From Sphingomonadaceae bacterium (GTDB lineage Bacteria; Pseudomonadota; Alphaproteobacteria; Sphingomonadales; Sphingomonadaceae), in NCBI GenBank assembly GCA_025359685.1, contig JANYEY010000112.1, forward strand, positions 1 through 64,000: DNA of 64,000 nt. Reading direction: 5' to 3'. The translations under genes and the position numbers were made by a program. Numbering within the stretch: position 1 is the stretch's first letter; every line of letters begins with the position of its first letter. Shown here piece by piece: positions 61,186 through 62,277 of the stretch. The notes under the pieces were generated by a model. It did no database searches. It worked only from the letters and a program-made list of their open reading frames with translations, and was not told where the DNA came from.

Positions 61186-61324
61186 AGAGAAACCTCAGAT
61201 CGACAAGTTCAAGGAGGCCGCTCGCGAGCACGAAGCGGACGAGAGCGCGGAGCATTGGGACGAGCAGTTGAAGCGGGTTGTGAAGCCTAAGCCTTCGGAT
61301 CAGGCCGCTAAGGGCAGGTCGTAA
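61175..61324 (+). CDS. 49-aa highly charged hypothetical protein overlapping the HTH gene
   Basis: MKAEEKPQIDKFKEAAREHEADESAEHWDEQLKRVVKPKPSDQAAKGRS*. The start overlaps the upstream stop by 11 nt. Confidence 0.5.
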   Translation: MKAEEKPQIDKFKEAAREHEADESAEHWDEQLKRVVKPKPSDQAAKGRS

Positions 61325-61692
61325 AGCTTCACATCGCGTGCAAGCTTTGACGCCGCAGCATACGCGTTCTTCTTGTCAGCGTCGGCAAATAGCTCATCGC
61401 CGATCTGTGAACAGACGGCTTCAAAAACCGTGACCAATTCCACGAACCCCTGCTCGTCGAGATTGTAGCGCTCGCGGATGGAGTCGAGAACGCGCTTAAA
61501 GCCCTTGAGCTTGAAGCCAATCGGTATCGTGTTTGTTTCGTCGTAAATAAGCGTCAGGATGCGATCCACGCGCCGGTAAACGGTAGTGGTGTCCTCGTGG
61601 ATATACTCCACGCAATCAGCATCAGCCAGATACACAGCGTTCGTGCCGCAATCATCATGAAGCCAAGTTTCAAGGTCTGTGATAATGTTCAT
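61300..61692 (-). CDS. Hypothetical passenger protein (130 aa)
   Basis: ORF starts 3 nt after the upstream gene's stop. MNIITDLETWLHDDCGTNAVYLADADCVEYIHEDTTTVYRRVDRILTLIYDETNTIPIGFKLKGFKRVLDSIRERYN... Confidence 0.65.
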   Translation of the reverse strand: MNIITDLETWLHDDCGTNAVYLADADCVEYIHEDTTTVYRRVDRILTLIYDETNTIPIGFKLKGFKRVLDSIRERYNLDEQGFVELVTVFEAVCSQIGDELFADADKKNAYAAASKLARDVKLYDLPLAA

Positions 61693-61695
61693 CGC

Positions 61696-62277
61696 CTAAC
61701 GGTGCCAAACGAGTTCGCCGTAGCGTTCGTCAAAACCGTCGGGGAATTCGGGTCGTTCCCTGCAAGCATTAACAAACTCCCATTTCGATATGCCGCCCCA
61801 TATACCCACTTGACAGTCGTGTAAAGCCGCCCTTGGCCGCGCCAAAACGGTTAGAAGCGTGTTGTCAGGTGAGGGATATATCCCCGCCGCAGTGCGCATA
61901 TTTGCCTGCATGCGAACGGTGTAAGGCGTTTTGATGATATAAATGTAAACATCGCTTCCGTCATCGTCCTGATCATAACGACGGTGAACTCCTTTAAAGC
62001 ACGCGTGTGCGTTTGCGATGCTCACTATGTCATTGTTCGGATGCTCGGCTCGGCGGACTAGTTCTGCGTTGTTCACTGGTGGCATTTCGCCAACTAGATG
62101 CGCCCAAGCTTGGAATATATCCGTGCGGCGGTGCGCTGCGACCAGTTTTTCCACAGTTGCCTGTGAAACTGATAAAAGAACAGTTGCCCCCGTGCCTTCA
62201 GGGCAGGGCGCTACAACGTCCGGGATAGGAACAATAGGAACGCGCCCCTTAGGCGCAAACAAATGAACTGAAGCCAA
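61696..62277 (-). CDS. Hypothetical passenger protein (193 aa)
   Basis: First gene of a two-gene operon reading inward from the right end. MASVHLFAPKGRVPIVPIPDVVAPCPEGTGATVLLSVSQATVEKLVAAHRRTDIFQAW... Confidence 0.65.
   Translation of the reverse strand: MASVHLFAPKGRVPIVPIPDVVAPCPEGTGATVLLSVSQATVEKLVAAHRRTDIFQAWAHLVGEMPPVNNAELVRRAEHPNNDIVSIANAHACFKGVHRRYDQDDDGSDVYIYIIKTPYTVRMQANMRTAAGIYPSPDNTLLTVLARPRAALHDCQVGIWGGISKWEFVNACRERPEFPDGFDERYGELVWHR

Follow-up and report, generated by a model that had tools for sequence, protein, structure and literature searches.

Two minus-strand genes in the window (the whole stretch of DNA analysed here, 64,000 nucleotides from a Sphingomonadaceae bacterium) are very probably a swappable cargo cassette of a passenger-bearing IS1595 transposon. 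By analogy with sister elements, which hold recognised toxin-antitoxin or defence genes in equivalent slots, the pair could be a toxin-antitoxin or abortive-defence module, a reading to which we give a little under an even chance.

The element is intact, spans positions 59299 to 62386 (3088 bp), and has terminal inverted repeats (TIRs; GGCGATTATATACCTTGCAAACACGG) and an 8-bp target-site duplication (TSD). An ISXO2-like DDE transposase with a zinc ribbon, the TIRs, and the 8-bp target duplication place it in the IS1595 family. The original prediction had described two ORFs of 193 and 130 aa, 3 nt apart and reading inward from the right end of a transposon as its cargo. The coordinates were confirmed (Table 1), and the location inside the transposon was borne out by the TIRs, the TSD AAAAAGAA on both sides, and an empty site in genomes of the same genus. 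The pair is tail-to-tail with respect to the plus-strand genes of the element. In the same-genus genomes the target is uninterrupted (for example, CGCAAAAAGAAAGGGGCGCCGCAGCGCCCCTTTCCC), indicating that insertion occurred in the A-run of a hairpin resembling a bidirectional terminator. The element is present once in its genome (a 2.58-Mb draft, ~88% complete), and no Rfam match to a non-coding RNA family was found within it. Among related elements, TSDs are often A- or T-runs adjoining G+C-rich hairpins (flanks of the window's element, L044, L051, L052, L064 and L069), which suggests an insertion preference for intrinsic terminators.

Table 1. Features of the IS1595 element in the window, from left to right
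Feature	Position	Strand	Remarks
Target-site duplication, left copy AAAAAGAA	59291..59298	.	empty site in related genomes
Left terminal inverted repeat	59299..59327	.	26 nt exact, 29 nt at 97%
IS1595-family transposase, 311 aa	59365..60300	+	PF12762 1.1e-35, PF12760 2.4e-11, NF033547 4e-57
HARE-HTH protein P0003, 173 aa (slot 1 cargo)	60664..61185	+	PF05066 1.5e-12
Conserved microprotein ORF, 49 aa, MKAEEKPQIDKFKEAAREHEADESAEHWDEQLKRVVKPKPSDQAAKGRS	61175..61324	+	boundary between cargo slots
P0002, 130 aa (slot 2 cargo, gene 2)	61300..61692	-	ATG start, pI 4.5, orphan
P0001, 193 aa (slot 2 cargo, gene 1)	61696..62277	-	TTG start, pI 6.4, orphan
Right terminal inverted repeat	62358..62386	.	
Target-site duplication, right copy AAAAAGAA	62387..62394	.	

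A transposase search of 301 genomes of the order and of plasmids yielded 35 related IS1595 elements, whose ends were set by a TIR profile together with the TSD. Counting the window's own element (n = 36), the two TSD copies were identical at 8/8 positions in 30 elements and at 7/8 or more in 33, and the cargo therefore lies inside true element ends. The layout is fixed: left TIR, transposase, slot 1, a microprotein ORF, slot 2, and right TIR. The cargo differs in most of the 35 sisters, and one slot is empty in some. In the window's element, slot 1 holds the HARE-HTH protein (domain at residues 62-131, covering positions 1-71 of the 71 in the PF05066 profile) and slot 2 holds the pair.

The microprotein ORF is the sole recurrent feature of these elements besides the transposase. 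It encodes 45-55 aa with the core KFKEAARELEADEDEARWDERLKKVVK, and was found in 20 of the 36 elements, including the window's. The product is charged, and the ORF lies without exception on the transposase strand, however the cargo is oriented, sometimes running antisense between minus-strand cargo genes. In the core region, mean pN was 0.25 and mean pS 0.65, with pN below pS in 135 of 136 pairs; this comparison used 17 rows, one of which (L049) is out of register, making the estimate conservative. Judged from these substitution patterns, the ORF is under protein-level selection. On plasmids the microprotein was located by DNA search; tblastn gave no plasmid match, probably as a result of low-complexity filtering, though the sequence is present there. 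No IS1595 transposase is annotated within ~4.5 kb of one copy, which lies on Paracoccus plasmid NZ_CP115769.

Comparison of the sisters indicates that cargo turns over faster than the transposase changes: of 21 pairs of elements whose transposases share 78% identity or more, only 1 has homologous cargo in common. Three elements of one genus (L053, L054 and L056) have transposases that are 93-94% identical and a common target, ACAAGTGT; their left kilobase and microprotein are homologous, and the slot genes are different. These three are among seven elements (the others being L047, L057, L058 and L059) that adjoin terminase, portal or capsid genes (Terminase_6N/6C, Phage_portal and Phage_capsid; for example, L053:4717-6294 and L053:6795-7916). 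A homologous left flank ('GACATCGTNACG...') is shared by six of the seven. At this locus the left and right TSDs of any one element match each other but differ from those in other species and genera, a pattern that favours repeated insertion at one hot spot, and we suggest that such insertion accounts for the elements found there in different genera. Transposase dS at the locus was 0.46-0.84, near that of the flanking genes. Vertical inheritance with exchange of cargo in place was also considered, and is disfavoured between genera by the differing TSDs; within genus g6, in-place exchange and repeated insertion are both possible. The order of the phage-head genes beside the seven elements resembles that of a gene transfer agent head cluster.

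Much of the sister cargo that could be named belongs to toxin-antitoxin or defence families. PIN-domain proteins with a partner protein were found in L041, L049 and L008 (by Pfam), in L044 (by homology), and in L007 (annotated VapC). SocA_Panacea is carried by L054, L059 and L064, PemK by L061, AlbA_2 by L055, and DUF3800 by L042, L045, L053, L056, L058 and L067. BstA (1.6e-115) is in L053 and PDC-S46 (4.7e-255) in L051, and a complete PD-Lambda-5 pair (A, 3.3e-178; B, 2.4e-116) lies at L050:3562-5839 in an IS1595 element with a perfect 8-bp TSD. At least one of PIN, SocA, PemK, BstA, PD-Lambda-5, PDC-S46 and DUF3800 was present in 17 of the 36 elements. As a control, 188 kb of flanking DNA with 933 ORFs was searched with profiles of the DUF3800, PIN and SocA cargo, and no ORF matched. 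In PADLOC, 62 flanking proteins also had matches, mostly to broad families (SspA/DndA and PD-T4-6 are among the models matched by flanking genes), and we therefore relied on near full-length, system-specific matches. The raw number of PADLOC matches was dropped as a statistic; the count alone cannot separate cargo from flanking genes.

The families of the two proteins were unrecognised in the original prediction, and this held in every library searched. P0001 and P0002 had no credible match in Pfam, NCBIfam, PHROGs, PADLOC or the PDB sequences, in 72,556 plasmids or in 50,697 phages, and none in viral contigs or, by peptide patterns, in genome contigs. No domain of a recognised toxin or antitoxin rose above chance in the pair (Pfam, NCBIfam and PADLOC), and no PADLOC defence family matched P0001, P0002 or the neighbouring P0003. 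Relatives of P0002 were absent from the sampled genomes of the order (301) and class (385), and relatives of P0001 from those of the class (385) and family (311); the samples overlap and each is a subset of a larger group, so the absence holds for the samples. Weak class-level matches (E 0.004-0.05 per genome) were regarded as noise given 385 genomes, including the best for P0001, which sits in a sensor-kinase-like protein. Comparison of structures was similarly uninformative: single-sequence AlphaFold models were too poor to use (mean pLDDT 36.8 and 52.6), and Foldseek with the better of the two returned nothing at E < 1.2. Across these searches, no link by homology, fold or motif was found between either protein and a toxin, antitoxin or defence family.

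The 130-aa ORF is convincing as a gene. Its GC content by codon position (0.59/0.34/0.64) is a normal coding signature, and its codon log-odds score is clearly positive in its own frame only (36.5 bits, compared to 2.1 in the antisense frame). The 193-aa ORF is probably also a gene, on modest coding evidence. The alternative, that this ORF is degenerate or no true gene and that function is limited to the 130-aa protein and slot 1, is improbable. It would account for the weak codon signal (log-odds not above the antisense frame), for the TTG start immediately 3' of an in-frame TGA without a clear ribosome-binding site, which leaves the start uncertain, and for the absence of a homologue from every collection searched. 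However, the ORF has 193 uninterrupted codons at 53% GC, a length reached in 34 of 2000 Markov-simulated 1-kb stretches (1.7%), and its GC by codon position (0.63/0.45/0.51), weaker than that of its neighbour, still follows the coding order 1>3>2. It also joins a convincing gene across a 3-nt junction.

If the pair is a toxin-antitoxin or abortive-defence module, its genes would be co-expressed and translationally coupled; the 3-nt spacing and the acidic downstream partner fit this reading. In such a module the product of the first gene (193 aa) would be an effector, held in check by the acidic product of the second (130 aa). If the element were lost or a phage infected the cell, the balance would shift and the effector would be set free, which would keep the element in its host or halt the spread of the phage. 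This assignment of effector to P0001 and neutraliser to P0002 is our inference, and a doubtful one. Adjacent, co-directional small genes are typical of type II toxin-antitoxin systems, and the pair has this arrangement, which is not specific to such systems.

The proposal of a selfish maintenance or defence module gains from the position of the pair, in a slot equivalent to those that hold recognised toxin-antitoxin and defence genes in sister elements, and loses from the lack of any family match. In approximately half of the sisters the cargo has no assigned function, which makes slot position alone weak evidence. The main alternative is that the pair is ordinary accessory cargo, with a role in stress, nucleotide metabolism or DNA repair, for example, that was picked up by chance and serves neither defence nor addiction. 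We consider this unlikely, but far from negligible. For many of the cargo genes in sisters no function was recognised, and it is established that IS1595 elements can carry unrelated passengers (Siguier et al. 2009, as cited in PMC3129680). In contrast, the nameable cargo of the sisters consists mostly of toxin-antitoxin, defence or DUF3800 genes, and the three families tested (DUF3800, PIN and SocA) are absent from the flanks. A regulatory role, in which the pair and the HARE-HTH protein control transposase expression or target choice, is very improbable. The HARE-HTH neighbour does have a predicted nucleic-acid-binding domain, but the pair is on the strand opposite to the transposase and is not conserved with it. 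The suggested role in target choice finds no support: in sisters without such a pair the TIR type is unchanged and the TSDs are still 8 bp long. These sisters include L041 and L042, which lack any homologue of the pair and whose transposases are ~80% identical to that of the window's element.

Insertion sequences with passengers are known, and IS1595 has been treated as a case that blurs the distinction between insertion sequence and transposon (PMC3129680, citing Siguier 2009; PMC9330008). Passenger-bearing IS1595 elements have been called 'transporter IS' (tIS; Siguier, Gagnevin and Chandler 2009, cited in PMC3129680). As far as these citing accounts describe tIS, the window's element is like them in having an IS1595 transposase, short TIRs, an 8-bp TSD and genes unrelated to transposition; it differs in having two slots, split by a conserved microprotein ORF, of which this cargo occupies one, and in that even close relatives by transposase, nearly identical in that protein, carry different cargo. 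Tn3-family transposons carry toxin-antitoxin pairs (reviewed in PMC9330008), likewise two-gene modules that travel as transposon passengers, but the transposase family is different and our pair has no homology to known toxins or antitoxins. A close parallel in arrangement is the SocA/Panacea pair of L054, which occupies the same slot on the same strand, with its two genes a few nucleotides apart and a winged-helix gene and then the microprotein preceding the minus-strand pair, although P0001 and P0002 have no sequence similarity to it. BstA, reported mainly in association with prophages (PMC8585504), and PD-Lambda-5 (PMC9519451) occupy cargo slots in L053 and L050, respectively, and the pair has no homology to either. 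Among the open-access papers returned by searches, no title or abstract addressed anti-phage or toxin-antitoxin cargo of IS1595. Passengers of IS1595 as such are known; what looks, provisionally, to be unreported in the open-access literature searched is the two-slot frame and its common microprotein.

We tentatively put forward a broader possibility: this IS1595 clade would carry immunity and addiction genes in a standardised two-slot format, with the microprotein marking the slot boundary and taking part in cargo exchange or expression, and the pair would be a hitherto unrecognised two-gene defence or toxin-antitoxin system, revealed by its slot. Searches for defence and addiction genes usually turn to islands, prophages and large transposons. 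If small transposons (1.8-3.5 kb) of a single clade carry one or two such modules time and again in fixed slots, then each unrecognised cargo in those slots would be a short candidate ready for testing, P0001 and P0002 among them. The common microprotein would be a simple marker for finding such elements, and would pose a concrete question about cargo exchange.

Two further observations concern slot 1 and winged-helix cargo. The closest relative of P0003 that we found (~48% identical) is encoded at 3018-3431 of L073 (genome G153), next to a different, possibly IS1-like transposase; both lie within a candidate unit of 3.3 kb that has inverted ends and an 8-bp direct repeat. In L054 (2736-2823, minus strand) and L057 (2547-2632, minus strand), ARAGORN predicted tRNA-like sequences with the anticodon tta (reading UAA), possibly suppressor-like tRNAs; both overlap the winged-helix cargo ORF at its 5' end, and the start listed for this ORF is probably wrong.
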